Positions 2,679 to 48,813 of a stretch of DNA of 61,205 nt are shown here, one piece after another (position 1 is the first letter of the stretch; the number at the start of each line of letters is the position of its first letter). The translations under genes were made by a program, and so were the position numbers. The notes under the pieces were generated by a model. That model was not told the DNA's origin. It saw only the letters and a program-made list of their open reading frames with translations, and did no database searches. Source of the DNA: a virus; the IMG/VR virus record IMGVR_UViG_3300020438_000036, positions 1-61,205 of that record; one strand, 5' to 3'.

Positions 2679-5477
2679 TTATGCAAAACTGGCGATTTTC
2701 TTCGCTCTAGCTTTGTTCTTATATTTTTCCATTGCCATTGCATGAACCTCTTTCTTCAATTCAGAGTTAGAGATTTTTGGTTGCAATTCTTTCACTAACT
2801 TCGACATCTCTGCCGCGTCTTTTTTATCAGAAGACTCAATTAATTCTTCTATGTCTGTATATTTAGACTCCTTCACAACAGACATTAATTTCTTATGGTT
2901 CTTAATTGCATACTCTTCGGCTTCTTTTTTATCTTCAAACTCTTTTACTTTATCGCCGTTTCCGTCATAGACGCAATACATACCACTTTCTTTATTCTTT
3001 TCTACATGATCTCTTGGATCCATTTTTTCGTTTATGGCTTCCTTGAGAGAGTCTTCAAGAACTTTCTTCGCGGTGTCTCCAGAAATTGTTACGGGATAAG
3101 TCTTTCCACCAAACGAGAAGTTTTTCTTCCCTGCTTTCTTCGCAGCAGACGCAGCGCCAATAAACTGTGCAACATCTTCGTCGGTAATTCCTTCGTTTTT
3201 CGTCTCAAACATCTTTCTGATATCTCCACCAGAAACATAATCGGGAAGCATATCTTCTAGATCGTCTACAGTGACAGTCTTCATCTTTGCAACTTTAGCA
3301 GCAAATCCTTTCATAGTCTTGGATTTCTTCATCAGTGCAGCAATTTCTTTTCCTGTCGCTTCTTCTAGTTCTACTTCTTCTTTAAATAATTTATAACCGT
3401 ACATATCATGTTCCTCTTGAACTTCTTCTTTAGAGAGCATTTTGTAAACAACAGAAGCGAGTTGTTTCCCAGACATCTTCTCCATCTTCGATTTATTCTT
3501 ATCGTTTACTTTATCATAAACTTGTAGAATAAGACCAGCAGTGGTCAAATCAATTCCCTTCATGTGTTGCTTTCTATCAACAATCTTGCGAGCAAGTTCG
3601 ATGCCATTCTCTTCTGTGATATCTACAAGTTCCTCTAGGTTCTCAAAGAGTTTCGCAGCCTGACCTAGAGACATAACCTTAAATGCGCCTATGTTTCCGG
3701 TCTTATTCGTCACTCTAAACTTGAACTTTTTTCCGTCCATAGATATCTTAACATCATAATTCTTGCCGTCCTTTCCTCGGACAGTCTTAAATTCTGATTC
3801 ATTCATCTCAATTTCCTCCATAAATTCAGAAGCCTTCAGTTTAATATTATGTGATCTTCGAAGTTCTGTTGCTGCTATCTGAGAAACGAAGTTAACCTTT
3901 GCCTTTGCGATCTGAGTCAGAGCTTCTTTATCCTGAGACTTAATCATTTTTGTTAATTTTTTGTAAGAAGAACTAGTAGGATCCACAGTAGAAACAGTAG
4001 AATATGCCTTCTTCAGTTTGCCGAGTTGTGCTGCACTGAAACCTTCTGTAGTCTCCACTCTCTTTCTTTTCATAGATCTATTGTGGAATAGATATTCAAT
4101 CGCACCGTCTCTTAATTCTTTATCCGACTTCTTTTTATTTGCCGGATACTGCTTCATAATACTAATAGTCTTCTGGATATTCTTTTCGTCTGAAGGACTG
4201 TACTTCTTCTCTTGAAGTTCTTCTTTCATACCAATAATTTTATCAACCATCTTGGTTGCTTTATCTTTAGATACCTTTAGACCTTTCATCACAAACTCAA
4301 TTCCCTGTTCTCTATTTTTAGAGGGGCCCATGAGTTTCTCTGCTTTCTTTAGATTTTCGTCTAGTTCGACTTCTTCTGTCAATTTATAACTCTTGATAGA
4401 TGCGCCCATATCTCCAAGTGCGAGTGTAGCATCTCCACCCTTTCTACTATAGAGGAAGAACTTCATTCCACCAGTCTTATCTGTCGGTTGTAGTCTTACC
4501 TTATCGACATCGTACTTTGCACTTCTGGATTTATTGACTACAGAAAACTCTCTAGTTTGAGAACTAGAAACAGTGCTACCGTAATTGATTTCTACCTTAT
4601 CACCTTTCTTCAGTTTTTCAAAGTCTCTTCTGGACATTCTCTCATTGAGCTCCATAGACTCAATATACATATTCAGTTCGTATGACTTTCCGGTGTTGTA
4701 TACTTGAACGCGAAGTTTCTTATTTCTTTCTCCATCCAAGTCTAAATGATAACTATTTGTCTTTCCGTTTGATGGTTTGCGGGGGCCAAATGCGACCTGA
4801 GTATCTATCGAATCGGCAGATACTTTGAATCCTCTTTTCTTTGCCACCTTGTAAGAATGTTGCATTGCGGCAGAAAATGTTTTGTGATACAAATCATAAT
4901 CTAGTTTTTCTGTTATCGTGGCATCTTCAATCTTTTTCTTTGGTTGGCCGGGAGTTGATTTGCGATACTTCTTTTCTAGTTCTTTAGATGCAAACTCTCC
5001 AGCACCAGCCTTAGATTTGAAGGGCTGTTTCTCTGCTCCAGTGACAGACTCAGGGACACAATCGGGAACCATTTTGTTCCCTTTCTTCTTCATTCCTACT
5101 TGTTTGTAACCATCCCAACACGGAGCCTGTTCTTTCTTGGTTCCACCACCGACTTTAGCAGCGAGGTCTTTATCTGCGCCACCCCAAGTTCCTTTACCTT
5201 TGGTAATAAAGGAATTTACGCGAGCTAGAGCCCACTGTTGTGCAGTTGTGCCGGGGCGATGACCTGTCTTGTATGCAGCCATTCCACGATTGTAAACTTG
5301 TTTTAGAATTCCAAGAGAAATACCACTTTTCTCTGCTTTAGATTTGAGTGCTTCGTCAGATTCCTCTAACTCTTTATTGTACGTCTTTCTTTTGTCCCCG
5401 CCGCGAACTCTTCTTTCCGCGCCCTCTTTCTTATGCCACTCTTGAAATTCTTTGAATGATTTATAACCAGATTTCAT
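2679..5477 (-). CDS. Large multi-module Lys/Glu-rich protein, possible polyprotein
   Basis: 932 residues, one of the longest genes here, directly behind a TATAAATA late promoter (5511-5518). Residues 1-110 hold a module with VYNRGMAAYKTGHRPGTT and GTWGGADKDLA, which I recognise only as a domain of unknown function recurrent in marine T4-like phages. Residues about 193-275 form a second module (YDLYHKTFSAAMQHSYK). Later modules are separated by acidic linkers ending in L/M-x-E: MELNE (275-279), EEVELDE (368-374), EELQE (419-423), EEIEMNE (554-560), EEVELEE (700-706) and LKEAINE (811-817). These resemble T4 prohead-protease sites (L/I-x-E). The N terminus contains KSFKEFQEW, loosely like a capsid-targeting sequence. 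A packaged, gp21-processed polyprotein is an inference. Confidence 0.8.
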   Translation of the reverse strand: MKSGYKSFKEFQEWHKKEGAERRVRGGDKRKTYNKELEESDEALKSKAEKSGISLGILKQVYNRGMAAYKTGHRPGTTAQQWALARVNSFITKGKGTWGGADKDLAAKVGGGTKKEQAPCWDGYKQVGMKKKGNKMVPDCVPESVTGAEKQPFKSKAGAGEFASKELEKKYRKSTPGQPKKKIEDATITEKLDYDLYHKTFSAAMQHSYKVAKKRGFKVSADSIDTQVAFGPRKPSNGKTNSYHLDLDGERNKKLRVQVYNTGKSYELNMYIESMELNERMSRRDFEKLKKGDKVEINYGSTVSSSQTREFSVVNKSRSAKYDVDKVRLQPTDKTGGMKFFLYSRKGGDATLALGDMGASIKSYKLTEEVELDENLKKAEKLMGPSKNREQGIEFVMKGLKVSKDKATKMVDKIIGMKEELQEKKYSPSDEKNIQKTISIMKQYPANKKKSDKELRDGAIEYLFHNRSMKRKRVETTEGFSAAQLGKLKKAYSTVSTVDPTSSSYKKLTKMIKSQDKEALTQIAKAKVNFVSQIAATELRRSHNIKLKASEFMEEIEMNESEFKTVRGKDGKNYDVKISMDGKKFKFRVTNKTGNIGAFKVMSLGQAAKLFENLEELVDITEENGIELARKIVDRKQHMKGIDLTTAGLILQVYDKVNDKNKSKMEKMSGKQLASVVYKMLSKEEVQEEHDMYGYKLFKEEVELEEATGKEIAALMKKSKTMKGFAAKVAKMKTVTVDDLEDMLPDYVSGGDIRKMFETKNEGITDEDVAQFIGAASAAKKAGKKNFSFGGKTYPVTISGDTAKKVLEDSLKEAINEKMDPRDHVEKNKESGMYCVYDGNGDKVKEFEDKKEAEEYAIKNHKKLMSVVKESKYTDIEELIESSDKKDAAEMSKLVKELQPKISNSELKKEVHAMAMEKYKNKARAKKIASFA

Positions 5478-5510: not shown

Positions 5511-5518
5511 TATTTATA
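5511..5518 (-). promoter_or_regulatory. Late promoter TATAAATA
   Basis: Exact T4-type late box on the minus strand, 34 nt before the ATG at 5477, in the short gap behind the adenylyltransferase-like gene. Use by the gp55 sigma factor and gp45 clamp encoded in this window is expected. Confidence 0.8.
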
Positions 5519-5522
5519 ATTT

Positions 5523-6908
5523 TTAGAAAGAGTACTTCTGGGGCAAAAGACCTTTTCCTATTAATTCATCAAGAAAATCTTTAAATCTTCTAGGGCGAAG
5601 GTTAAAAGTTTGGGATGCGTGACTGAAGGCATCATGTGCTGAATGTTTTGGGTCTTTTTCGTAGGCCTGCAAGAAGTATTTCAACGCTGCCTTATATCTA
5701 CTCTTTTTAAATACCTTCTCTGCAGCGCGACTCATCCAAGGAAAATTGTCGAATATCTCATCGATCTGAGTATGATCTAATTCTTCATACTTCAATACAG
5801 AGTTAGAACTAGAGAAGTTCTTCTTACGCATGATAGTTTTTGCGGTAAGTTCTATTTCGCCGTCTTTATCTTTCTTTATAACTACTGGGATGTTGAGGTA
5901 ACTGGAGATGTCTTTGATGATTGCCTGATCGTCTGCGTTAGATTTGATCTGATTGCCCTTATTATTCTTAATCTTCTTAAAGATTTTTTGAAGTTCTGCA
6001 ACCTTGATCTCCGGAGTATTTCTTTTGTCGTTTATTCTATCTACAAAGTGTCTTGTAAATTCGACATCAATCTGGTACTTTTTTAGAAGCTTATCAGCAA
6101 ACTTCTCCAAATCATCTATCTGTTTTTGACTTACCAGTTCATCTAACTTCTCTTCGATAAGAAAAGACTTGAAACCTGAGATAGATGATTCTCTCTTCTG
6201 TAGTTCAACTGGGATATAAAATTCTTGTATGAGTTCCTTGTCATCAAATACTTCTATCGATTCTACTGTAGGAGACTCTATAAACTCTCTAAAGGTATGG
6301 ACATCAGAACCAAGAAATAGACCAAGTTCAGTATCTTCTACCTTCATTGCCTTTCTAAGCATCTTAAAGAGAAGTTCTCCACCTCTAAACTTGGAGGGCA
6401 ATCCGTTCTTAAACGAATCGTAATCATTCGCAGCAGCGGCTGCTCTCATCTTGGATGCAGACATACCTGAGACACCTTCTGCATCTGGATCTCTTTCTCC
6501 TGCAGATACTATTTTGACTCCACCTTCAAATTCATAAAAACCATGTCTGCCTTCGACACCATTGTATTTGTTGAGAACATTATCAAACTCTGATACTCTA
6601 TCTCCGCCCACAACCATTATTGCTTCTTTATAACCCAGTTCATGGATAAGACTGACAGCATTAAACGCAGTCTTGACTTTATTATTTGACATGATGTTCT
6701 TAGAATACTTCGGAAACATCTTCTTCATAAACTTGACCTTGGATCTAAAATCCAATGGGTCTTTCTTCGGGTTCTGAGAATGACTAGGGAATACCAAGAA
6801 GTCGGCACCCTCTTTTTTTGCAACAGCAAAAACCTTATCCAACAATTTTTCGTGACCTGTTGTTGGAGGATTAAATCTGCCAAAAGTGAAGACTACTTTA
6901 TCCTTCAT
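5523..6908 (-). CDS. Nucleotidyltransferase (NadM/cytidylyltransferase-like) with C-terminal extension
   Basis: 461 residues. The N terminus (VFTFGRFNPPTTGHEKLL) carries the F-G-R-F-x-P-x-T-x-G-H signature of HxGH nucleotidyltransferases, and residues about 147-156 (SGMSASKMRA) match the second S-x-T/S-K-x-R motif, so residues 1-190 probably transfer AMP or CMP to a phosphate, as NMN adenylyltransferases do. Residues 246-254 (FKSFLIEEK) look like an internal capsid-targeting or L-x-E site. A second domain follows (about 255-375, with FTRHFVDRINDKRNTPE and ELTAKTIMRKKNF), common in marine phages but unassigned. The last 80 residues are helical. The substrate is not determinable from sequence. 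The start overlaps the upstream stop by 11 nt. Confidence 0.78.
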   Translation of the reverse strand: MKDKVVFTFGRFNPPTTGHEKLLDKVFAVAKKEGADFLVFPSHSQNPKKDPLDFRSKVKFMKKMFPKYSKNIMSNNKVKTAFNAVSLIHELGYKEAIMVVGGDRVSEFDNVLNKYNGVEGRHGFYEFEGGVKIVSAGERDPDAEGVSGMSASKMRAAAAANDYDSFKNGLPSKFRGGELLFKMLRKAMKVEDTELGLFLGSDVHTFREFIESPTVESIEVFDDKELIQEFYIPVELQKRESSISGFKSFLIEEKLDELVSQKQIDDLEKFADKLLKKYQIDVEFTRHFVDRINDKRNTPEIKVAELQKIFKKIKNNKGNQIKSNADDQAIIKDISSYLNIPVVIKKDKDGEIELTAKTIMRKKNFSSSNSVLKYEELDHTQIDEIFDNFPWMSRAAEKVFKKSRYKAALKYFLQAYEKDPKHSAHDAFSHASQTFNLRPRRFKDFLDELIGKGLLPQKYSF

Positions 6909-7314
6909 CAGAAGTCCTTGTTATTTCAAGTATCTTTTCTATCTGAGTTCTAATAATCGGTTCACGATTAGGCCAGTAGATATAATCTTTTTCTTTATTT
7001 TTCAATAAATTATAAAGAAGTGGCATAATAAGTTTCTCTACTTTCATCAACTTATCTTCGGTCACTTCACTGGTTATATCTAATCCGCTCAGTTTTTCCT
7101 GATACAGTTGTTTCGTATCGACCAACTCAGACATAATATCTGTCTGGAGTTCTACCAATTCTTGTATTTTGATACCAAGGTTTTGTATTTCACTATCTAC
7201 ACCATCGATCTTGACTGAAACTTCTTGAGGGGCAGATCTGAGCTCCGCGAGTTCATCTTCATCAACCGCAGTGAAACCGTAATCTATATCTTCGTATTTG
7301 TATTCGTTACTCAT
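6898..7314 (-). CDS. Hypothetical protein, coiled-coil-like
   Basis: 138 residues from the ATG at 7314 (MSNEYKYEDIDYGFTAVDED). A longer frame reaches 7377 but would run 41 nt into the preceding gene. An acidic N terminus precedes a long heptad-like helix (IDGVDSEIQNLGIKIQELVE and onward) and a C-terminal segment with YIYWPNREPIIRTQIEKILE. The C-terminal W-P-N-R segment resembles proteins paired with gene 26-type or small baseplate-associated products in marine phages, but I cannot assign a function. Confidence 0.65.
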   Translation of the reverse strand: MSNEYKYEDIDYGFTAVDEDELAELRSAPQEVSVKIDGVDSEIQNLGIKIQELVELQTDIMSELVDTKQLYQEKLSGLDITSEVTEDKLMKVEKLIMPLLYNLLKNKEKDYIYWPNREPIIRTQIEKILEITRTSDEG

Positions 7315-7336
7315 AGTAATACTATTTATCTGTTCG

Positions 7337-7612
7337 TTATTTCCAGAACTCAGTAATTTCGATAATAAGGTGGCCACTTTCTTTTATCAACCTATGATAT
7401 TCCATTTCCCATATAATAAACTCATCATCAACTTTTAACTTTTCTGGTAAAATATTATCTTTCTGGAAATACCAATCTCCTACTTCTATTACTCTCATAT
7501 GTCTTGTGTTTACATCTCTGTGCCATACGAGAGACTCTTCATCGACGGTATCTGTGAATGTTCTAAGGAATTTGTTTGATGTTATTGAGGTTTGAACGTA
7601 TGGTTCTACCAA
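7337..7612 (-). CDS. Hypothetical protein, cupin-like fold
   Basis: 91 residues. The order WHRDVNTRHMRVIEVGDWYF then FIIWEMEYHRLIKESGHLII has the beta-strand pattern and paired histidines of a small cupin-like barrel. The RHMRV/GDW and YHRLIK motifs recur in marine T4-like phages. Metal binding through His residues is possible but unproven. It overlaps the upstream gene by 7 nt and is part of the same accessory operon. Confidence 0.6.
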   Translation of the reverse strand: MVEPYVQTSITSNKFLRTFTDTVDEESLVWHRDVNTRHMRVIEVGDWYFQKDNILPEKLKVDDEFIIWEMEYHRLIKESGHLIIEITEFWK

Positions 7613-8157
7613 AAGAAATTACCCCCACCAGAAAGTCCTAATGCTTTGGCGTACTTAGGTAAACGACAAGCCCAATATCCAGCCTTTGTTTTATCGTTTT
7701 TCTGAGCACAATTATGCCGCGCAACAAAAGATTTTCTCGCTTCGGGGTCATTGATTTTTGCAGAAAGGCCAGTATCATCACCAAACGAAATCTTTATAAC
7801 ATTTCCTTTATCATTCTTAACGTAAACATAATATTTTTTACTGCCGCCTCTCTTGGGTTTGTTCAGTTCTACATCTTTTTCTTCTTCTGACATAGGTAAA
7901 TCTAGTGGAACTTCTTCGCCTTCAAACTCTGCAAAGTTTCCTATGTCAGTATTTAAAATCTCTATATCGGATTCATTTAGGTGTTCTAACTTGCCTTCCT
8001 GATATAATGATTTGGCCTCTATAAAGAATTCAAAAAACCCTTCAGAACCCATTCGAAAGATATTCTCCAAAAATGGTATGTCGTTCTCTAAATGAAATCG
8101 GATTGCTTCACTGCAATCTTCACATATAGGTTTATTATAAGATGCAAAACTTTTCAT
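7606..8157 (-). CDS. Accessory protein with C-terminal ARHNC...YWAC domain
   Basis: 183 residues. The C-terminal third (KKYYVYVKNDKGNVIKISFG, then ARKSFVARHNCAQ, YWACRLPKYAK and GGGNFFW) is a small basic domain found at the C terminus of many phage virion-associated proteins; its two Cys and one His may bind zinc. The N-terminal half is acidic and helical, starts MKSFASYNK and contains FFIEAKSLYQ near residue 45, which resembles an I-x-E prohead-protease site. The ATG overlaps the stop of the preceding 58-residue gene (TAATG). The function is unknown; a virion location is inferred. Confidence 0.65.
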   Translation of the reverse strand: MKSFASYNKPICEDCSEAIRFHLENDIPFLENIFRMGSEGFFEFFIEAKSLYQEGKLEHLNESDIEILNTDIGNFAEFEGEEVPLDLPMSEEEKDVELNKPKRGGSKKYYVYVKNDKGNVIKISFGDDTGLSAKINDPEARKSFVARHNCAQKNDKTKAGYWACRLPKYAKALGLSGGGNFFW

Positions 8158-8333
8158 TATAAAGCTTCCAAATACTCTTCGTTGAGTTGTGTTTCTAATT
8201 CTTCCACTCTGGTTTTCAACCAGCTGATTGCAGTAATGATATGTCCTGTCGCTGATGGACGAACCTTTGACTCTGCATATGCAATTTCTCTTCTCAGAGT
8301 ATTTACTAAATCTTGTTTTTCACTAACACTCAT
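8157..8333 (-). CDS. Small conserved helical protein (58 aa)
   Basis: A gene shorter than most ORF cut-offs: ATG at 8333, stop at 8157-8159 overlapping the next ATG. The product (MSVSEKQDLVNTLRREIAYA, then ESKVRPSATGHIITAISWLK, ending EELETQLNEEYLEAL) is one helical hairpin. It fills the gap between two supported genes with 3-nt spacing on one side and a one-base overlap on the other, which strongly supports coding. I recall similar short proteins in marine T4-like phages but know no function. Confidence 0.75.
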   Translation of the reverse strand: MSVSEKQDLVNTLRREIAYAESKVRPSATGHIITAISWLKTRVEELETQLNEEYLEAL

Positions 8334-8336
8334 AAT

Positions 8337-8660
8337 TTATCCTTTCTTTTTCATTTTGGTTCTCTTGGCTTTCCATGTCCTAGAACCCATTTCCTTTTCA
8401 ACTTGTTCGATTGCTTCTATGAGATCTGGAATATTCATAGACATTCCACCCTTCTCCATAAGACTTCCCGCCTGTTTCCAGTTCTTCATTTTAACTGCGC
8501 GAGATAGCTGATCCACATAACCCTTCAACTTCATGTTGAGAGTGCTGTAAGTATAGACTCCATTAAAGTATACTTGAGGATCTTCGAAATCTTCAAGACT
8601 TTGTGGATTCTGTACTTCTACTTTAACCTTCTCGGTGAGGTATTGTTTGAAATCTTTCAC
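8337..8660 (-). CDS. Candidate internal head protein with capsid-targeting-like N terminus
   Basis: 107 residues. It begins MKDFKQYLTEKVKVEV, closely matching the pattern of the T4 internal-protein capsid-targeting sequence (MKTYQEFIAEA: M-K-x-aromatic-x-x-aromatic-h-x-E). L-T-E is also the sequence at the presumed cleavage point of the major capsid protein here. The rest is a basic helical protein (YVDQLSRAVKMKNWKQAGSL) ending KAKRTKMKKKG, suited to DNA association. Packaging and cleavage after LTE are inferred. The start overlaps the kinase-like gene stop by 4 nt. Confidence 0.65.
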   Translation of the reverse strand: MKDFKQYLTEKVKVEVQNPQSLEDFEDPQVYFNGVYTYSTLNMKLKGYVDQLSRAVKMKNWKQAGSLMEKGGMSMNIPDLIEAIEQVEKEMGSRTWKAKRTKMKKKG

Positions 8661-10024
8661 TCATCTTTCTCCGAATACATCATGTAATCATAGACGGATG
8701 TCATATAATCACTTGCCTTAGTAATCTTTGCCTGAACCCATGCGTCCAATTCGATATCCTGATTAGGGGAATCTCTGAGCATCCCGACTAATTCATCTGA
8801 GAGTTGTTCTGCTTTATCTGCAAGTGCTCTGAGTTGGGTTAGTGCCATCTTTGATTCTTGATCTTCATATATATCCATAGAATAATCCTCCTTGATACCT
8901 CTTTGCTTCTTCACCTGAGATATCCAATCTTTTCCGATACTATTCTTGGGGGGTTTAGCAGCCCAAGTTTTAATATCCTTATAAACTCTCTTAGAATCTC
9001 TTGCGAAATCTGCCCCATCAGAGTTATCGACCACATAAAAATTTGTCTTAAATGTGTTCTGGAATCTACCGATATTCTTCTGAACTCCTTTCCACATCTT
9101 TTCTACTTCTGCGTCTGGTAGTTGTCTTGGACGATTTCTGTTTCTTTCTAATGCAGTCTCAAGATCTGTGTTAACAAAAATCATCGCAGAATCATATCCA
9201 AGTTGATCTAAGTATCTCTTTTGTGTTAATATCTTCTTGAAGTTCTTTCCAGTTCCATCAATGACAAGTCCCAATCTTCCCTTAATATACATCGACTTCT
9301 GGATATCTGTCAGTTTAGTTGCTTTACCTCTGACGGCTTGTCCTTGCGGAGACATTATATCATCTGGAGTTGTTGATAATCCTGCCTTCTTGAGTAACTT
9401 CTCAAATGCTGGATCCGAATTGACAAGTTTCATACCAAGAGAAACCAGTCCAGTTTGACCTACAATAAATGACTTACCAGATCCGGGCCCACCTGCGAGA
9501 AATACTGCCTTGAATATAGAAGGATCATTTATGCCTTCTTCTAAATCTACTTCTTCTGATTTTTCTTTATCTTTGAGATATGCGGCAATTGCCATCTTTT
9601 GAATCTTTTTATCAGACTTACCCTTGAACTGAGGAGCATCTGACTTGCGGAAATCGTCTATATAATCTCCGGCATCGTCTTTCTTGGGATCGAGTTTCTC
9701 TTGTTGTTTTTTCTTTTCTTTTTCTTTTTTCGCAATAGCGATTGCTGCCTGTTGAGCAGGAGATACCGATTCGTCCTCTTCCTCTCCATACATCTTCTTA
9801 AACTTTAATGTATGTTTGGATGGTTTTGTTTTCGCACCAGCATCGCCAGGAGCAGGCCCAGACTTCTTCTTTTTAAAATGTGATGCACGTTTATCTTTAG
9901 TTGATTTGGACATATCTCCGGCGTAGTACTTCTTTGGTTGAGTACCCTCTTTATCTTCGATGTCTTTATCCTGTGCAACTCTTCGAAGTTTTTCTCTGAG
10001 AAATATTTCTTTATAGTCTTTCAT
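8657..10024 (-). CDS. P-loop kinase (zeta-toxin/PNK-like) with removable basic leader
   Basis: 455 residues. The N terminus (MKDYKEIFLREK) is capsid-targeting-like. Residues about 30-80 (PKKYYAGDMSKSTKDKRASH, then AKTKPSKHTLKFKKMYGE) form a basic module seen in other phage virion-associated proteins. LEEG at 161-164 is a plausible prohead-protease site just before the catalytic domain. Walker A is AGGPGSGKS (177-185), followed by LVIDGTGKNF, a NTD motif and RNRNRPRQLPDAEV, as in zeta-toxin or polynucleotide-kinase-like enzymes. It probably phosphorylates a nucleotide, sugar nucleotide or nucleic acid end. The substrate is unknown; injection with DNA is a hypothesis. Confidence 0.78.
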   Translation of the reverse strand: MKDYKEIFLREKLRRVAQDKDIEDKEGTQPKKYYAGDMSKSTKDKRASHFKKKKSGPAPGDAGAKTKPSKHTLKFKKMYGEEEDESVSPAQQAAIAIAKKEKEKKKQQEKLDPKKDDAGDYIDDFRKSDAPQFKGKSDKKIQKMAIAAYLKDKEKSEEVDLEEGINDPSIFKAVFLAGGPGSGKSFIVGQTGLVSLGMKLVNSDPAFEKLLKKAGLSTTPDDIMSPQGQAVRGKATKLTDIQKSMYIKGRLGLVIDGTGKNFKKILTQKRYLDQLGYDSAMIFVNTDLETALERNRNRPRQLPDAEVEKMWKGVQKNIGRFQNTFKTNFYVVDNSDGADFARDSKRVYKDIKTWAAKPPKNSIGKDWISQVKKQRGIKEDYSMDIYEDQESKMALTQLRALADKAEQLSDELVGMLRDSPNQDIELDAWVQAKITKASDYMTSVYDYMMYSEKDE

Positions 10025-10491
10025 TAACTTTCCGCAATTTCAAACTCTACCTTTCCATTTTCATAAAGGTATTCTCTATTCTTTAGATGACCTTCTTCAA
10101 TATCATCTTTACTCTGTCCGTAGTAGGCAACCGCAAGCTTGCGTTCTATCATCATATCGTTCAAATTCAATTCTACTTCAAACGTAGGATGACCAGCATT
10201 ATCTACTGCGATAAATTCTCCCAGTATTCTGCCAAACTTACCCTTCTCATCTTTATGAGTTTGTAGTAATACCTCACCATATTTATCTCCCATTAAAGCT
10301 TCCTGTAGAAAGTCTTTTGCGAGTAATCCAAATTTCTTTTCTTCTAAATCTCTGGTTCTGGATTCTGGTGTGTCAATTCCATACAGTCTCACTCGTTCTT
10401 TCTTTAACCAGACACCAAATCCTAAATCGATATCAACATCCACCGTGTCGCCATCAATAACCTTTATCACATCAACTCTATACTTGTACAT
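10024..10491 (-). CDS. Staphylococcal-nuclease-like endonuclease
   Basis: 155 residues. VIDGDTVDVDIDLGFG, ERVRLYGIDTPESR and KFGRILGEFI match the SNase (thermonuclease) fold: the Asp of DGDT, the Arg of VRLYGIDTPE, the Glu that follows and the Arg of GRILG correspond to the calcium and phosphate-binding catalytic residues. It cleaves DNA or RNA phosphodiesters. There is no signal peptide, so it is intracellular or packaged. It sits between the kinase-like gene (one-base junction) and the KWDG protein. Host DNA breakdown is a reasonable role in marine T4-like phages. Confidence 0.85.
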   Translation of the reverse strand: MYKYRVDVIKVIDGDTVDVDIDLGFGVWLKKERVRLYGIDTPESRTRDLEEKKFGLLAKDFLQEALMGDKYGEVLLQTHKDEKGKFGRILGEFIAVDNAGHPTFEVELNLNDMMIERKLAVAYYGQSKDDIEEGHLKNREYLYENGKVEFEIAES

Positions 10492-10492
10492 A

Positions 10493-11746
10493 TCACTTAT
10501 CCCAATTTTTCGCAGCAGTAAAGTTATTATAACTAAACTCTAATCTATCGACCAGTTTCACCGCACCCTTACCACTCTTATCGATAGCAACATATCCTTC
10601 CGGATTGCTTACTTCGTATCCATTTGAAGTTCTTATAAAGATATCGGTAAGTTGTTTCACTTTATTCAACTTCGTCACAATAATTGACTTCGCAGAAACC
10701 AAACCTTGCATGAATTCTACTAAGTTTATTATTAATTTGTCATAAGAAATTAACTGTTTTACCAGTTCATCTCTTTCTTGTTCTTTTACTTCTCTGCCCT
10801 TCGCAGACTTCAATTTCGTTATTACCTTTTCATCATAATACTTTTTGACGTACATAGAATAATTTAGGTTTTTAACATTTTGTACAGAAAAATTAGCGCC
10901 CGACCTTATAAATTGGTTTAGATATGTTTTAAACGATCCCCCGGCCCTAGATTTAGAAAAACTCTTATCTTGCATAGATAAGAACTTTTTCAGTTCGGAA
11001 GATTTAATCTTTCTAAACGAACTTCCAACACCAGACAATATTTTAGTAACCTGATCGGTTTCCGATTTAGTAAACTTCGCAGTACCAGAAACATCTTTAT
11101 AAGTGGCATCATCCATCCAAACAGAAGATGGTTTGTTTAAGTTAGATATGTTGACCCCGAATGACGCAGACATATCTTGCAGATCACTGCCTTTATATGT
11201 GGTGTGCCAAACTACACCAATTTTGGACTTATTAATTTGTTTACCAAGATCGGAATTTATATCCGCAGCATATACTAGAGTGTTTGGTTGAAATGTATAG
11301 TAGGTTTTACCGTCTATCTTAGTAGTAGAGACATCATCAGTGAACATCAAGTCTCCCTGTATGACACCTTTGATATTGAGTTTCTTAAACTCGTTGAATG
11401 CTATTTTGAATTTAGAATCAAGTTGGGCAGATAGATTATCATCATTAATATCTTTGATACTCTTATAAAGTATCGGGTTGACATTGAAGACACTTTTCTT
11501 TGCGACAAAAAACTTGCCATCGGACGGATCTATTCCTGCGAATATTGCTGGAGCTCCATCCCATTTAACTGTCATATTAACTCTGGAACCTGTTGTTCCC
11601 GCGAGCATATTACGAAGAGAACGAAGAAAATTTAATGCAGCACGACCACCATCAATTCCGTGGTTGATGATTTCTTCTTCTATATGTTCTAGGTGTAAAT
11701 TTTTTCCACCTTTCGCTTCTGTTAAGAATTCAGTAAAATCGTGCAT
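10493..11746 (-). CDS. KWDG-motif protein with capsid-targeting-like N terminus
   Basis: 417 residues behind a late promoter (11769-11776) and AAAGGA ribosome-binding site. The N terminus MHDFTEFLTEAKGGK is the best capsid-targeting-like sequence in the window, with LTE followed by A. Residues 58-70 (MTVKWDGAPAIFA) resemble motif I (K-x-D-G) of ATP-dependent ligases and mRNA-capping nucleotidyltransferases; FFVAKKSVFN and IKGVIQGDLMF could be motifs Ia and III. I recognise the family only as a DUF frequent in marine T4-like phages. A covalent nucleotidyltransferase or RNA/DNA ligase-like activity is therefore possible, not shown. Confidence 0.75.
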   Translation of the reverse strand: MHDFTEFLTEAKGGKNLHLEHIEEEIINHGIDGGRAALNFLRSLRNMLAGTTGSRVNMTVKWDGAPAIFAGIDPSDGKFFVAKKSVFNVNPILYKSIKDINDDNLSAQLDSKFKIAFNEFKKLNIKGVIQGDLMFTDDVSTTKIDGKTYYTFQPNTLVYAADINSDLGKQINKSKIGVVWHTTYKGSDLQDMSASFGVNISNLNKPSSVWMDDATYKDVSGTAKFTKSETDQVTKILSGVGSSFRKIKSSELKKFLSMQDKSFSKSRAGGSFKTYLNQFIRSGANFSVQNVKNLNYSMYVKKYYDEKVITKLKSAKGREVKEQERDELVKQLISYDKLIINLVEFMQGLVSAKSIIVTKLNKVKQLTDIFIRTSNGYEVSNPEGYVAIDKSGKGAVKLVDRLEFSYNNFTAAKNWDK

Positions 11747-11768: not shown

Positions 11769-11776
11769 TATTTATA
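11769..11776 (-). promoter_or_regulatory. Late promoter TATAAATA
   Basis: Exact late box on the minus strand 23 nt before the ATG at 11746, in a 33-nt gap following the dioxygenase-like gene. Confidence 0.8.
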
Positions 11777-42998: not shown

Positions 42999-45101
42999 TT
43001 ATGTTGTTGCCTTGAACAGATATGCAGTTCCTGAGTAATCGTAAGAACCTTGTTGATATCCAGGCGAACCCGCAATTAAAGTCGTTCCATCAACTGCAAA
43101 GTTATGTCTGGTGTATCCGACCAGCTGCGAGTTTGCAAAGTAATCTTGTTCTGGAGAAGTAGGACTATCTAACGACATAGTAGACATATAACTAGAAGAA
43201 AGATTTGAATTCGCACTTCCGCCAGCTGGAATGTTGTTTAAATTAAATACCGATATTTGACTATACGACCCTTCTTGTCTACCCCCCACTACAAATAACG
43301 CTTCATCGGTCATTTCAACACCATTTCCGAACTGATAAGACGATCCTCCCCAAGCGATAGGAAGATTAAAATCATTAGGAGTTAACCTTCCGCGAATAAC
43401 TGGTGCTGCAGCATTATCGTCCGTAGAGTCAAACTCGTACAAATATACCACACCTCTAGCCGACTCGCCTCCTGTTTCGCTAATTGCAATCCAGTTATCG
43501 TTTATTAGAGTATTAAATCCAAAATTCCCATACCCGGCAGGAGATGTAGGATTTATTTCGTATTCTGTATTATTCACTGTGTTTTTTACCCAGGCCCGCC
43601 CAGCTTCATTTTGACCACCATAATCCGCGCCGTCTTCCCCAAAAACTACCCAGTTATTTTTTATATCCAATCCTCTTCCTAGACTACCCAAGCCAGAACC
43701 GCCTTTACTGACAAAGGTTCCAGTTAACGTCGGCGAAGATAGATTAGTGATATCTATGGTATGAATTCCTCTACTATAGCTGGTTGCTAAATAAAGAGTG
43801 TTACCATCATCAGAAAATACCATTTTCTTATTATTAGCGTATGTATCTCCAGTGTATATAAATGTACTTATTAAATTTCCAGAAGTAATATCAAAGAAAT
43901 CTATATGAGATCTCCTAGTATTCGCGGAGACTCTTCTATCAGAGAGTGTGGCTACGACATTTCTTCCTTCATGTATCTGACATCTAAAAAACCCATTATT
44001 GATCCATAGATCGTCCGACGAAGCTCCAATTCCAGACGGAGATGTGAAATAAGCAGCTGCCCCCCAATCTAATGTGTGTAATAAGCTTCCCGTCATATCG
44101 TATAGATAGTGTCTGCCTCCCCGATATCCAAACTGAAAACGATCTCCACTACCAACCACAAAATAATTTTCTGATATTGCAACGGATGATCCAAATTTGT
44201 GACCATCGCTGGCGCTTGTCCAAGTCTGCCAGCCAGGATTTGGATTTATTATTTGTGTCGTATTCCAAGAAGAAAACGCAGCCCAATCTGTAGAGAATGC
44301 GAGTGTAAAACTTGATGGCGTCGTTGTTGCGACATTCACTGAGTCATTTGCGGAAAATGTTAATTCGAATGTCGCAGGAAGAACTCCGTGAGGTGTTATA
44401 GTAAAGACATTATCATTCTGTGTAACCGTAGTTCCGTTGAGTGCTCCAGAAGTAACTGCGTGTGAGAATGATACTGGATCGTTTTCTGGGTCTGTTGCAG
44501 TCAAGGTAATGACTGTCGGAGTCATGTCGGTAGCAAGAGTATATGCTGCATCGTTCCCCGATACTGTTGGAGCAGTATTGATTAATGCAACTGCATACCA
44601 ACCATCTGCAGTTTTAATGTATAACTTATTATTTGATTGAACAACTGCTTGATCTCCGGCAGAAGCACCAGCGGGTAAATCACCGACTGTTGCAACAACT
44701 TGTAGTGCGGCCGCAGTAGGAGCGGTATAAGAAACTACACCGCCATTGTATGATAAATCTCCAGAAACACTTATTTGTGGTTGAACACTTTCAGCGTTTA
44801 GAAACTTATTTCCACCTTCTGTGAGGTTATCAGTATTTGCAACTGATCCCATATCCGCAGCACCAGTTCTTAATTCTTTAAGACCTTCGGACATTTCTAC
44901 TAGATCATCTACTGATGCACTAGGAATTGCTGCAGCCATTTCGGTATCGATGTCAGTTTCAACTTCTGAATCATCTGTAAGACCGACAAACCTTGCGGAT
45001 TTTGCAAGTCTCCCCAAATCTCTTGGGTTAGAACCAGAAACTTGACTTCTTATACGAGTCTTCATGTTCGTTTTTGAGTTGACTAAGTTGGAATTAGGCA
45101 T
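42999..45101 (-). CDS. Adhesin-like virion protein 3 with FG-GAP-type repeats
   Basis: 700 residues from the ATG at 45101 (MPNSNLVNSKTNMKTRIRSQ), chosen for its GGAG site and the late box at 45137; the longer frame to 45167 would start upstream of that box. The helical anchor (LGRLAKSARFVGLTDDSEVE, EMAAAIPSASVDDLVEMSEG) and cadherin-like module (LTATDPENDPVSFSHAVTSG, about 190-280) are almost identical to the protein at the right edge of the window. The propeller repeats after about residue 290 (FGSSVAISENYFVVGSGDRF) differ. Probably a tail or capsid surface protein. Confidence 0.78.
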   Translation of the reverse strand: MPNSNLVNSKTNMKTRIRSQVSGSNPRDLGRLAKSARFVGLTDDSEVETDIDTEMAAAIPSASVDDLVEMSEGLKELRTGAADMGSVANTDNLTEGGNKFLNAESVQPQISVSGDLSYNGGVVSYTAPTAAALQVVATVGDLPAGASAGDQAVVQSNNKLYIKTADGWYAVALINTAPTVSGNDAAYTLATDMTPTVITLTATDPENDPVSFSHAVTSGALNGTTVTQNDNVFTITPHGVLPATFELTFSANDSVNVATTTPSSFTLAFSTDWAAFSSWNTTQIINPNPGWQTWTSASDGHKFGSSVAISENYFVVGSGDRFQFGYRGGRHYLYDMTGSLLHTLDWGAAAYFTSPSGIGASSDDLWINNGFFRCQIHEGRNVVATLSDRRVSANTRRSHIDFFDITSGNLISTFIYTGDTYANNKKMVFSDDGNTLYLATSYSRGIHTIDITNLSSPTLTGTFVSKGGSGLGSLGRGLDIKNNWVVFGEDGADYGGQNEAGRAWVKNTVNNTEYEINPTSPAGYGNFGFNTLINDNWIAISETGGESARGVVYLYEFDSTDDNAAAPVIRGRLTPNDFNLPIAWGGSSYQFGNGVEMTDEALFVVGGRQEGSYSQISVFNLNNIPAGGSANSNLSSSYMSTMSLDSPTSPEQDYFANSQLVGYTRHNFAVDGTTLIAGSPGYQQGSYDYSGTAYLFKATT
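44290..45076 (-). repeat. DNA repeat shared with 60420-61204 (adhesin anchor module)
   Basis: The N-terminal ~260 codons of the genes at 42999-45101 and 58975-61205 are very similar in DNA and protein, while their 3' parts differ. Such a direct repeat about 16 kb apart could recombine and exchange C-terminal propeller modules. Confidence 0.75.
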
Positions 45102-45136
45102 GGATTTTCTCTCTCCAGTATAAAATGATTTTCTTA

Positions 45137-45144
45137 TATTTATA
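45137..45144 (-). promoter_or_regulatory. Late promoter TATAAATA for the adhesin cluster
   Basis: Exact late box 36 nt before the ATG at 45101, just after the terminator at 45166-45192. Confidence 0.8.
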
Positions 45145-45165
45145 AAAAAAGTATTTGAGTTTTCC

Positions 45166-45192
45166 AAAAAGGAAGGGGGCGATGCCCCCTTC
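45166..45192 (-). terminator. Intrinsic terminator
   Basis: On the minus strand GAAGGGGGC-ATC-GCCCCCTTC is followed by CTTTTT: a 9-bp GC-rich stem and T tract. It closes the short region behind the late box at 45262-45269. Confidence 0.85.
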
Positions 45193-45330: not shown

Positions 45331-46692
45331 TTAACCGATTGCTGTCAATCCTGATACCGCAACCTTCCTGTAGTATTGGTTTGAACCAGAACTCATTGAG
45401 GCAAATGGGTTTGCAACAATTCCGTATCGGGTCTTGAATCCAATCTTAGGTTGGAAAGTATTTTCGCCGACTGCGCGAACCATTTGTAATGGGACGTATG
45501 GGCAGTAGAAAATACCAGCATCATAAGGTGAAGATCCCTTATAACCTACAACCAACAACTCATATCCAGAAGTTGATGTGAAGTAAGGATCAATATAAAC
45601 TCTCATTCTTCCGTTAAGAACACCGGCAAAAGTTTGACCTGTGTCATCAACTGAAAGATTAGTTTGTAGTGCGGGGTTGTAATCTAGTACACCTGACATG
45701 GCGAGAGCAGAGGCAACGTCCGAAGAACAGATAACCAAGTTACCTTTTCCTCTACGAGTTTCTTTAGCAATTGCGTTTGCTTCTCTTTCGATCTGGTAAA
45801 GAAGACCTTTATACTTCTCTACTGACCAACGACCATCTGCGTCAGCATCTAGATCAAAAACACCCTTCGTAGTTACACCAGCTTGTGCGCCAGGCTTTGC
45901 AACTGCGTATACTGTTCTCAGAACTTCTCTGTTGATTTCAGCAGTGATTTCTGAAGAAAGAATGTTTGATAATTCGCTTTCAGCGTCTAGACCGTGAACT
46001 GCCTTCAGATCTTGTGCCAATTCCATAGTGTATTCTGCTTTCAGTGCTCTTGATTGCGCTGTGACAGATACTCTATCGATAGAGAATGACATTTGATTGA
46101 AGTGGCCGCCCGTACCCATTCCAGATACAGAACCGTCTCCTAATGCTTCTGCCTTAGCAGTAGCAGCAGATCCGCCCGTTGTGTAGTCACCAGCAGAATA
46201 GTCTAGTTCGGCTGAAGCGCCAGAACCAGAAACTGCAGCACCACTGAATGGGTCAGTTCCTGCATGGGCAGGACTTGAGGCACCAGAGAAAGCAGTATCT
46301 GCTTCGCCGTAAAGTGCTTCACCGGCTTGATCGCCGTATTGTGATTTCATTGCAAAAATGAGACCTGTTGGGCCGCTCATAGGTTGAACACCTAGAACAT
46401 CATAGGCCATCAGGTTAGGCATAGAACGTCTGATCAATGAAATCAGTACAGGATCCATACCCTTAATGTTACCTTCGCCACCGACAACTGGAGACATACC
46501 GCCACCAACTGCATTTATCGGCCCTTCAGTCAACATTGAGGCTTCTTCTCTTGCAATACTTTCTTGGTTTTCAAGAAGCATAGCGGTTACCGCTCTCTTA
46601 TAAGAATCTTCGATCTTGGGTAGATCGGGATGCTCGATTACTGGCTTCCACTTCTCTTGAAGTTGCTCTGACAAATGCATTTCTGTATACAT
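45331..46692 (-). CDS. 23: Major capsid protein precursor, T4 gp23
   Basis: 453 residues. The N-terminal peptide ends at SMLTEGPINAV (about residues 53-63), a canonical L-T-E|G prohead-protease site, so about 57 residues should be removed. MDPVLISLIRRSMPNLMAYD, FSIDRVSVTAQSRALKAEYT and FYCPYVPLQMVRAVGENTFQ are diagnostic of gp23. It forms the hexamers of the prolate or isometric head. An AAAGGAG site precedes the ATG; a late box lies 63 nt upstream and a terminator follows. Confidence 0.98.
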   Translation of the reverse strand: MYTEMHLSEQLQEKWKPVIEHPDLPKIEDSYKRAVTAMLLENQESIAREEASMLTEGPINAVGGGMSPVVGGEGNIKGMDPVLISLIRRSMPNLMAYDVLGVQPMSGPTGLIFAMKSQYGDQAGEALYGEADTAFSGASSPAHAGTDPFSGAAVSGSGASAELDYSAGDYTTGGSAATAKAEALGDGSVSGMGTGGHFNQMSFSIDRVSVTAQSRALKAEYTMELAQDLKAVHGLDAESELSNILSSEITAEINREVLRTVYAVAKPGAQAGVTTKGVFDLDADADGRWSVEKYKGLLYQIEREANAIAKETRRGKGNLVICSSDVASALAMSGVLDYNPALQTNLSVDDTGQTFAGVLNGRMRVYIDPYFTSTSGYELLVVGYKGSSPYDAGIFYCPYVPLQMVRAVGENTFQPKIGFKTRYGIVANPFASMSSGSNQYYRKVAVSGLTAIG

Positions 46693-46774: not shown

Positions 46775-47839
46775 TTACTGTTTTCTACTGAACCTTGAGA
46801 TTGCTCTTGCGTAGTTTTCCATTACTGGGTTCATAGTTTCTTTGGCAGCTTGTTCTTCCAGAACCGCCGGAGAATCTTCAACCGCAGTGACTTCTTCTTC
46901 GCCATCTACAATTTCACTAGAAACAGTCTCTTCACTTGGAAAATAATTTTCCTTAATGACTTTAACCTTTTCAGCAAAATCTTCAGTAGAAGTAAATTCT
47001 ATACCTTCAGACAAAGAACGAATCTTATCAGCCTGTTGGATAGTCATACCTTCCACGACATCCCTAATGATTCCATCTTTCTGAACTAATTCAACTTCTT
47101 TTGAAAGTTTAACATTCTTTTCGATTTCTTCATTGAGTTGTTCTTTAACTTGTTCTGCTTCTGCAACTGCTTCTGCATACAAGTCTGACTTCTCTTCTGG
47201 AACTTCGATATAGTTTTCTTCGAAAACTGTCTTCATGCCAGAAATGAAGTTTTCCATGATTTCGAGCTTAAGGGTGCTTTCAACAACAACCTTATTCTCT
47301 TCCAACCACTCTTTTGCGACATAAGACAAATACTCATCTACCTTTTCCGCAAGTTGTGATCTAACTTCAAGAACTGACTTCTCAAAATCTTCTTCGTATT
47401 GCTGATCTATCTTTTCAACTTCTGCGTTTACTTGTTCTAGAACAGCTGCTTCGAAAATCGTGCGAGCCTTTTCTTGGAAATCTTCGGACAATTCATGTCC
47501 AGACAACATTGCATCAATGTGTTCTGATACATCAATATCTTCTTTCTTGACCTTCTTCTTCATCATAAAAGAATTCTTAGGTTCTTCTTCGTCTTCTTCA
47601 TCGTCGGCCTCTTTCATTTTTTTCTTACCGTAGCCGCCTTCTGCCAAAGACTCTTCTTCTTCACTTTCTTCAGAAGTTTCTTCTTCGTCTAACTCGGCAA
47701 GAATTTCTTCTACCGCTCCGTCAGCTTGTTCCTCAGAAACTTCTTGAACTAGTTCGTCTTGAGACTCTTCAGAAATTTCTTCAGACTCTACTGAATTCTC
47801 TAGTTCTTCAACTTCATTGACTTCTAGTTCATTAGCCAT
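46775..47839 (-). CDS. 22: Prohead scaffold core protein, T4 gp22
   Basis: 354 residues, longer than T4 gp22 (269) because of an acidic N-terminal stretch (ELEVNEVEELENSVESEEIS onward) with many potential L-x-E sites. The C-terminal half is a long charged helix (EVRSQLAEKVDEYLSYVAKE, then NFISGMKTVFEENYIEVPEE), as in scaffold proteins. It assembles inside the prohead and is degraded by gp21. Order 21-22-23 is the T4 order. Confidence 0.9.
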   Translation of the reverse strand: MANELEVNEVEELENSVESEEISEESQDELVQEVSEEQADGAVEEILAELDEEETSEESEEEESLAEGGYGKKKMKEADDEEDEEEPKNSFMMKKKVKKEDIDVSEHIDAMLSGHELSEDFQEKARTIFEAAVLEQVNAEVEKIDQQYEEDFEKSVLEVRSQLAEKVDEYLSYVAKEWLEENKVVVESTLKLEIMENFISGMKTVFEENYIEVPEEKSDLYAEAVAEAEQVKEQLNEEIEKNVKLSKEVELVQKDGIIRDVVEGMTIQQADKIRSLSEGIEFTSTEDFAEKVKVIKENYFPSEETVSSEIVDGEEEVTAVEDSPAVLEEQAAKETMNPVMENYARAISRFSRKQ

Positions 47840-47887: not shown

Positions 47888-48535
47888 TTAGTTTTTAGAC
47901 AATTTTTCGAAGAAATCTTCAAAGAGTCCTATCTTAGTAGTTTCCATCTCTTTAGACTTTGCAGACCTAACTGCATTTCGATAACTGTCAATTTGTGCTT
48001 CGCGGATAATACCATTATCCCAAATCCATTCCTTACCTTCCATGATTCCATTTACGAATGCATCAGGAGCAGATGGATCCGCCACGATATCGGCTGCAGT
48101 CGCAAGATAAAAATCACCTTGTACTACATTGTTTCCTTCTTTCGTAGACTTCACACTTCCCATACCTCTAGAAGAAACACCAAGAGACGCACCTTCTTTG
48201 ATAAGATTTGATACTATTGCACCATAAGGAGTTTCTTTCATAATCTTTGCCTTACCGACATAGTTATCGCCCTCAAGTTTGAGAGATTTAATCATGTGGG
48301 AAACTCTTTCAAGGTTAATAGAGGGCCCATCCGGATGACCTAATTCACCGAATGCCCTGTTTTTATTAATGTAATTTTCTGTATATCTCTTGACTTCTTT
48401 CTCAAGAACTTCTTTTGGATACACTCTGCCGTTTCGATTTTCTATATTTGACTGAAGAAAGACTCCTTCAATATAAAGGTCTTTTCCTTTTTCTTCTACA
48501 ATAAGATCTTCGCAAATTTCTGTTATAAGTTTCAT
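47888..48535 (-). CDS. 21: Prohead core protease, T4 gp21
   Basis: 215 residues. RAFGELGHPDGPSINLERVS supplies the catalytic His and GASLGVSSRGMGSV the Ser of the herpesvirus-assemblin-like protease fold; YLATAADIVADPSAPDAFVN is also characteristic. It cleaves capsid and internal proteins at L/I-x-E after assembly. The N terminus (MKLITEICEDLIVEE) resembles that of T4 Alt (MELITELFDED), an injected head protein, which may mark a shared core-targeting feature. Confidence 0.93.
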   Translation of the reverse strand: MKLITEICEDLIVEEKGKDLYIEGVFLQSNIENRNGRVYPKEVLEKEVKRYTENYINKNRAFGELGHPDGPSINLERVSHMIKSLKLEGDNYVGKAKIMKETPYGAIVSNLIKEGASLGVSSRGMGSVKSTKEGNNVVQGDFYLATAADIVADPSAPDAFVNGIMEGKEWIWDNGIIREAQIDSYRNAVRSAKSKEMETTKIGLFEDFFEKLSKN

Positions 48536-48537
48536 GT

Positions 48538-48813
48538 CTATGTTCCTGTACGTTTGGCCATTGACCTTGCTCTGCGAGTATTAGAAATAGCAACTTTGCC
48601 CTTTCTCTTTCGAGCAGACTTTTTATTCCTCAAACTCATTTTGACTTTATCTGAAGCAGAAATTTTAATTTCTCTTTTATTGCCATCAACTTTGTAACCA
48701 GCCCGGTCAGATTTAAACTTAATTTTACGTTTGCCACCACGGATAACAACTTTACGTTTTACCGCTTCGTCTAAATCATCTTCTAGAAATTGTGAAAAAG
48801 TCTTCATAGTCAA
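48538..48813 (-). CDS. Prohead core protein, gp68-like position
   Basis: 91 residues, very basic (SAMKRKGK and RRARSMAKRTGT-like C terminus). The N terminus MTMKTFSQFLEDDLDEAVKR matches the capsid-targeting pattern (M-K-T-aromatic-x-x-F-h-x-E). It lies between the acidic core protein and gp21, where T4 has gene 68. It probably enters the prohead core and is cleaved. A start at the second Met (48807) is equally possible and would fit the targeting pattern better. Confidence 0.78.
   Translation of the reverse strand: MTMKTFSQFLEDDLDEAVKRKVVIRGGKRKIKFKSDRAGYKVDGNKREIKISASDKVKMSLRNKKSARKRKGKVAISNTRRARSMAKRTGT

Follow-up and report, generated by a model that had tools for sequence, protein, structure and literature searches.

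The 61,205-base IMG/VR virus record IMGVR_UViG_3300020438_000036 (the window, analyzed at its full length) carries T4-like genes, nearly all on the minus strand. Between positions 5523 and 11746 lies a run of genes, from a DUF6267 protein to a cytidyltransferase-like protein, that adjoins replication genes, and several of its products bear short tags resembling the N-terminal capsid-targeting leader of the T4 internal proteins. All of the peptides quoted in an earlier sequence-only reading, including an internal FKSFLIEEK, were located on the minus strand, and the T4 pattern it used, MKTYQEFIAEA, is the start of T4 ipII and ipIII. The tagged set reaches past this interval, to a 932-amino-acid (aa) protein. 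Genes and leaders in this region are as follows.

10493..11746, minus strand: DUF6267 protein with a predicted RNA-ligase-like fold (PF19782, E = 3e-100); leader MHDFTEFLTEA at 11714-11746, conforming to the T4 targeting rule
10024..10491, minus strand: staphylococcal-nuclease-like protein (SNase; PF00565), N-terminus MYKYRVDVIK; untagged, cargo status doubtful
8657..10024, minus strand: P-loop kinase, zeta toxin/polynucleotide kinase-like (PF06414, E = 8.5e-7, above the cut-off; phrog_505, E = 2e-6); leader MKDYKEIFLRE at 9992-10024, with one extra residue relative to the rule
8337..8660, minus strand: 107-aa protein with a GTG start; leader MKDFKQYLTEK at 8628-8660, conforming to the T4 rule
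7606..8157, minus strand: 183-aa protein (phrog_7595) whose start, MKSFASYNKPICED, is only weakly tag-like
5523..6908, minus strand: cytidyltransferase/NMNAT-like protein (PF01467, phrog_3041); internal tag FKSFLIEEK at 6147-6173 (residues 246-254), at a domain junction
2679..5477, minus strand: 932-aa multidomain protein (DUF5824) with a tag-like KSFKEFQEW near its start

The proposed set of packaged cargo holds in part. The DUF6267 and 107-aa proteins are tagged and the kinase is tagged with an extra residue, but no tag was found on SNase, p58, p91, or p159 of the interval, which need not be cargo. The internal FKSFLIEEK is present as described, but it marks a fused domain and not an N-terminus; the N-terminus of the window cytidyltransferase has no tag.

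In T4, targeting depends mainly on leader residues 4 and 7 and processing on residues 8 and 10 (reviewed in PMC9026906). Both the DUF6267 and 107-aa proteins have an aromatic residue at position 4 and a hydrophobic residue at position 7. Matches to a loose form of the pattern number three in the window (0.31 expected, P = 0.0045), and matches to the strict rule number two (0.16 expected, P = 0.0125), so that the window matches alone are improbable as chance, yet not overwhelmingly so. A 14 kb stretch of T4 gives matches only for ipII and ipIII (2 of 30 genes); the leader of T4 ipI is longer (MKTFKEFTSTTTPVSTITE|A).

Conservation of the DUF6267 leader was assessed in 80 related loci, with the N-terminus judged where the 5' end was present; the loci share descent, so counts across them are not independent. 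The 38 distinct leaders of 11 residues all have F at position 4, L or I at position 8, and E at position 10; at position 7, 35 of them have F, Y, L, I, or M and the other three have H. Positions 2, 3, 5, 6, and 9 are variable (2.1–2.9 bits), and a near-constant KGGKNLHLEH follows the leader. That the conserved positions coincide with those functional in T4 is the strongest single result of this analysis; because letters at the free positions drift while 4, 7, 8, and 10 stay, the leader appears to be under selection. The strict rule marks 51 of 63 DUF6267 members, compared with an average of 0.2% in 62 other families of the related loci (506 members). It also marks all five members of a 97-aa family, all three RimK-like ATP-grasp proteins, and seven of nine members of a 142-aa family. 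Relatives of the 107-aa protein start with MKDFKEYLVEN and MKSFKQLTEAG.

A chance resemblance to the T4 leader would be easiest to entertain from the window P values and from the shortness and degeneracy of the pattern. It is rejected because the pattern is retained across 38 leaders whose other letters drift and because the background is 0.2%, and we regard it as extremely improbable. Judged by these comparisons, the tags are real and maintained by selection. In HTVC008M-type loci (L096-L175), the DUF6267 leaders are shortened to MELLNED, MLLVED, MYNDLLVED, or MYSLNNYLVED before KNTHLEH.

The portal, T4-type protease, scaffold, and capsid protein genes are all in the window, and T4-type late promoters precede genes of the tagged set.

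48538..48813, minus strand: prohead core protein, gp67/68-like (phrog_3503 head scaffolding, weak, E = 8e-4), between the portal and protease genes; leader MKTFSQFLED from 48807, the third codon of the open reading frame (ORF)
47888..48535, minus strand: prohead protease, gp21-like (PF03420 Peptidase_S77, E = 4e-39)
46775..47839, minus strand: scaffold, gp22-like (PF25623 T4_CASP, E = 6e-63)
45331..46692, minus strand: major capsid protein gp23 (PF07068, E = 1e-141, from residue 77)
11769..11776, minus strand: late promoter TATAAATA, an exact T4-type match upstream of the DUF6267 gene
5511..5518, minus strand: late promoter TATAAATA, T4-type, upstream of the 932-aa gene

With E at position 9 and D at position 10, the core-protein tag falls outside the strict protease-site rule; in the T4 leader, D at position 10 allows targeting and blocks processing (PMC9026906). 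The suggestion that the gp23 precursor is cut at LTE|G finds a candidate site at MLTE56|G57, assigned by analogy, and its counterparts in the Synechococcus phage S-CREM2 (LLTE|AP) and in S-SCSM1 (FLAE|AP) stand at the equivalent place. Exact copies of TATAAATA in the window number 16 on the coding strand and none on the other, with about 2.8 expected per strand. The motif also precedes gp18, 19, 20, 22, and 23 and the core gene, and it was not found before the helicase and polymerase genes of the window. Of 34 window/Melnitz-type loci in which a gene immediately precedes DUF6267, 27 have TATAAATA 13–48 nucleotides before that gene; HTVC008M-type loci have no exact copy immediately upstream of DUF6267. 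The late promoter reported for cyanophages is NATAAATA (PMC2984593). On this sequence evidence, the DUF6267 and 932-aa genes are predicted to be expressed late.

We compared the leader pattern, set before the phage sequence was examined, with the published virion proteome of S-CREM2 (PMC10665884, Table 3). Five of its 219 proteins match the pattern, and four of the five are virion proteins:

gp6: SAM lyase (PF23780), MKDFDSFLEEF, in virions
gp14: kinase, MKRFDAFLTEE, in virions
gp154: cytidylyltransferase, MKNFSSFLTEA, in virions
gp136: protein of unknown kind, MQTFSMFFSED, in virions

The association between tag and virion presence is significant by Fisher's test among all proteins (P = 0.012) and with recognized structural proteins excluded (P = 0.0016). 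The DUF6267 relative in this phage, gp87, begins MNKATKPLTHIEH, is untagged, and is absent from the published virion proteome. Virions of S-SCSM1 contain an NMNAT (PMC9602691), which begins MKSFLQFLKEA and is therefore tagged. Across cyanophage-type loci, the cytidyltransferase is tagged in all 74 cases in which its N-terminus was found (MKKFSAFLxEA); no tag was found on the RaK2 cytidyltransferase. A broader pattern, which accepts the core at any place within the first 35 residues (P = 3e-5), was framed after the S-CREM2 matches and is not counted as evidence. S-CREM1 was left unused as a third proteome, there being no virion marks in the part of its record consulted. The S-CREM2 virion protein gp12 (L086:7704-10313) has a tag-like RFASFMAEA at residues 18–26, not at its start; it is annotated as a Cas9-like nuclease, a name without support from any Pfam match.

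Several observations weigh against capsid targeting. The virion evidence comes from S-CREM2 and S-SCSM1, neither of which is this phage or a close relative of it. Over all S-SCSM1 ORFs the association is weak and does not reach significance (2 of 7, P = 0.07), several virion proteins of that phage have no tag, and the authors of both proteomes raise carry-over as an alternative (PMC10665884, PMC9602691). The cyanophage-type DUF6267 adjoining the tagged cytidyltransferase begins MPNKHLEH and is untagged, the kinase and core-protein tags in the window depart from the strict rule, and leader cleavage is a step that we infer. Because cyanophages tag the cytidyltransferase but not the adjacent DUF6267, the tag sits on different neighbors in different lineages.

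Carry-over of abundant proteins would account for the tagged virion proteins of the relatives if the leader were a helix that docks onto a phage complex in the cytoplasm, such as the replisome or the late transcription machinery, and the adjoining replication genes and the weak S-SCSM1 association are in keeping with this. Yet the conserved positions equal those for targeting and cleavage in T4, including the protease-type E10; late promoters are present, the core protein bears the same leader, and untagged neighbors and homologs are not enriched in virions. We consider a docking helix quite unlikely. Capsid targeting, as first proposed from the sequence, is well supported by the conservation of functional T4 positions, the head machinery, the late promoters, and the tagged relatives in a published virion proteome.

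Leaders and payloads in the relatives appear in changing combinations, and one leader type precedes unrelated payloads both among the S-CREM2 virion proteins and in the related loci. In the slot upstream of DUF6267, payloads are paired with differing leaders: the payload KLKAEDYEAAIVIG stands behind an MQGFKTFLSEA-type leader, MRFQDFRDNLNEA, MKGFKDFIDEPVDLQEA, or a long MSIRAHVRK..NFLTEQ leader, and the leader MRFQDFRDNLN stands ahead of two payloads. Payload families in this slot include phrog_2496, 8438, 1462, and 22045. A second, longer leader type of about 30 aa (M-S-I-R-K-Y-Y-R-Q-L-N-P...), which ends near an E, precedes several unrelated payloads upstream of DUF6267 (L029:1340-2692, L065:8616-10001, L072:8839-9999). 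The RimK-like ATP-grasp protein (L082:82-1131, Melnitz-3) has a capsid-targeting-type leader in three of three members; its relatives are annotated as S6 modification enzymes, and if injected, it could modify host ribosomes. Melnitz, a cultured Methylophilales phage, encodes relatives of DUF6267 and of the cytidyltransferase as well as a tagged RimK-like protein. Another tagged protein upstream of DUF6267 (L082:12203-13288 and relatives) has no Pfam match and contains a TPKTDxxIG...SLK stretch that recalls PD-(D/E)XK nucleases.

Some tags and protease-like sites lie within fused proteins. The window FKSFLIEEK sits where stand-alone homologs of the C-terminal part begin MKTFRQHLLSEQEITKQDL, a tag, and a fused protein in L025 retains a tag at the junction (PKLSFEQFIKEDKAGKNLHLEH). 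Relatives of the 183-aa protein are fused into multidomain cytidyltransferases. The kinase (Walker A P-loop GGPGSGKS) has a candidate protease site, VDLEE|GINDP (residues 157–163), just ahead of its kinase domain, which starts right after xE|G both here and in several relatives. In the 932-aa protein, whose L003 homolog carries KTFKEFIEW, there are four protease-like linkers (ESMELNE, EEVELDE, EEIEMNE, and EEVELEE), compared with 0.18 expected for the pattern [ED][EDSNK][VIFLM]x[LIM]xE. ITE and LTE motifs are cleavage sites of T4 gp21 (PMC5694885). A motif of the form [LIVMF]xE occurs within -8..+6 of 63% of homology-defined domain starts and at 25% of random places, a comparison that uses related proteins and therefore overstates significance. 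The junction tags, the protease-like linkers, and the xE|G before the kinase domain suggest polyprotein-like processing of the multidomain proteins.

DUF6267 is predicted to have an RNA-ligase fold. The motifs K-x-D-G, Q-x-D, E-G-x-V, and K-x-x-D-R are invariant in its long and short forms (39 and 35 aligned sequences), and we take them to match ligase motifs I, III, IV, and V in kind and order. A model of the short cyanophage form (predicted local distance difference test [pLDDT], 91) gave 50 top VIA-align structural alignments that were all to RNA or DNA ligases, the best being a Naegleria RNA ligase (Z 8.5, 175 residues, root-mean-square deviation 3.8); T4 Rnl2 scored Z 6.8, and Foldseek E-values were only about 0.1. 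For the window-length protein, a long helical insertion left the model (pLDDT 77) with a mixture of structural matches; the short form resolved the fold. For DUF6267, as for the kinase and cytidyltransferase domains, searching solved structures by sequence gave no meaningful match, and PADLOC found nothing notable in the window except weak matches to SNase and the kinase. DUF6267 and the cytidyltransferase are joined in phrog_455, which supports a functional link. The DUF6267 ligase fold together with the zeta/polynucleotide-kinase-like P-loop protein makes nucleic-acid repair plausible.

Such activities could also be exercised inside the prohead, in assembly, DNA packaging, or end repair, as is partly the case for T4 IPIII, whose mutants assemble heads more slowly (PMC9026906). 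The ligase and kinase could work on packaged DNA ends, and the prohead core protein has the tag in common with the enzymes. However, the T4 internal proteins and Alt are ejected and active in the host (PMC9026906), the SAM lyase and RimK-like enzymes among the relatives' cargo are a poor fit to assembly factors, and the free swapping of payloads weighs against a prohead-only role. We judge it unlikely that the tagged proteins are packaged without serving as host effectors.

We therefore favor packaging followed by ejection, which we hold with fair confidence. T4-type late promoters would drive synthesis of the tagged proteins late in infection, and the leader would bind the prohead core (scaffold gp22), so that the capsid encloses them. 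The prohead protease gp21 would then cut after L/I-x-E, and multidomain proteins would probably also be cut at internal sites. Mature enzymes would be packaged alongside the DNA and would enter the next host by ejection; there the RNA-ligase-like enzyme, the P-loop kinase, and the NMNAT-like enzyme could be active ahead of all phage gene expression. For the tagged proteins, packaging is very likely, processing of the leaders by the prohead protease is likely, and ejection is likely by analogy with T4. The simplest role would be nucleic-acid repair and nicotinamide adenine dinucleotide (NAD)-related counter-defense, which we put forward tentatively. It is conceivable, if doubtful, that marine T4-like phages carry interchangeable leader-payload cassettes and polyprotein cargo that, once cut into separate enzymes inside the prohead, is injected as an RNA-repair (ligase plus kinase) and NAD-related kit against host defenses before phage genes are read.

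Marine phages thus probably bring ready-made enzymes into the host together with their DNA. The tag would explain how virion enzymes of cyanophages enter the head, for which the proteome papers give no route (PMC10665884, PMC9602691). With it, predicted head-borne proteins can be listed from genome sequence for the marine T4-like phages that infect cyanobacteria, SAR11, and methylotrophs. DUF6267, a large family with no assigned function, gains a predicted RNA-ligase fold and, in tagged lineages, a likely place of action. Elsewhere in the window, two large proteins (42999-45167 and 58975-61191) have a common MKTRIR[SN] start region and are possibly related tail fiber proteins.

The system is a variant of the known T4 internal-protein system. 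T4 IPI, IPII, and IPIII (Mullaney and Black 1996, as reviewed in PMC9026906) likewise have an N-terminal leader of 10–19 residues with an aromatic residue at 4, a hydrophobic residue at 7, L/I at 8, and E10, and they share the late-gene context and the unrelated payloads behind a common leader. Here, in contrast, the cargo consists of larger enzymes (ligase-like, kinase, and nucleotidyltransferase), some leaders are internal to fused proteins, and a slot close to replication genes holds the shuffled cassettes. The ADP-ribosyltransferase Alt of T4 is a head-borne enzyme with a short N-terminal propeptide cut at I-T-E, and also at a distal L-T-E (PMC5694885); its leader resembles the short MELLNED-type leaders of HTVC008M relatives, but the enzymes are not homologous, and alt is absent from cyanomyoviruses (PMC2984593). 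In the giant phages SPN3US and phiKZ, ejection-protein propeptides are removed by a gp21-related prohead protease at several sites per protein (PMC5694885), but these propeptides usually exceed 100 residues, and a short shared leader is not described. DUF6267 resembles RNA ligases (T4 Rnl2, Naegleria RNA ligase, and TbREL1) in predicted fold and in motifs I, III, IV, and V; it differs in its low identity (~10%) and in the helical insertion of the window protein, and it is not known to act as a ligase. A literature search on capsid targeting and cyanophages together returned only a T4 review, and the papers on S-CREM2 and S-SCSM1 virion enzymes propose no targeting signal. The virion cytidyltransferase of these two phages is homologous to that of the window and tagged at its N-terminus, whereas the window homolog carries its tag internally.

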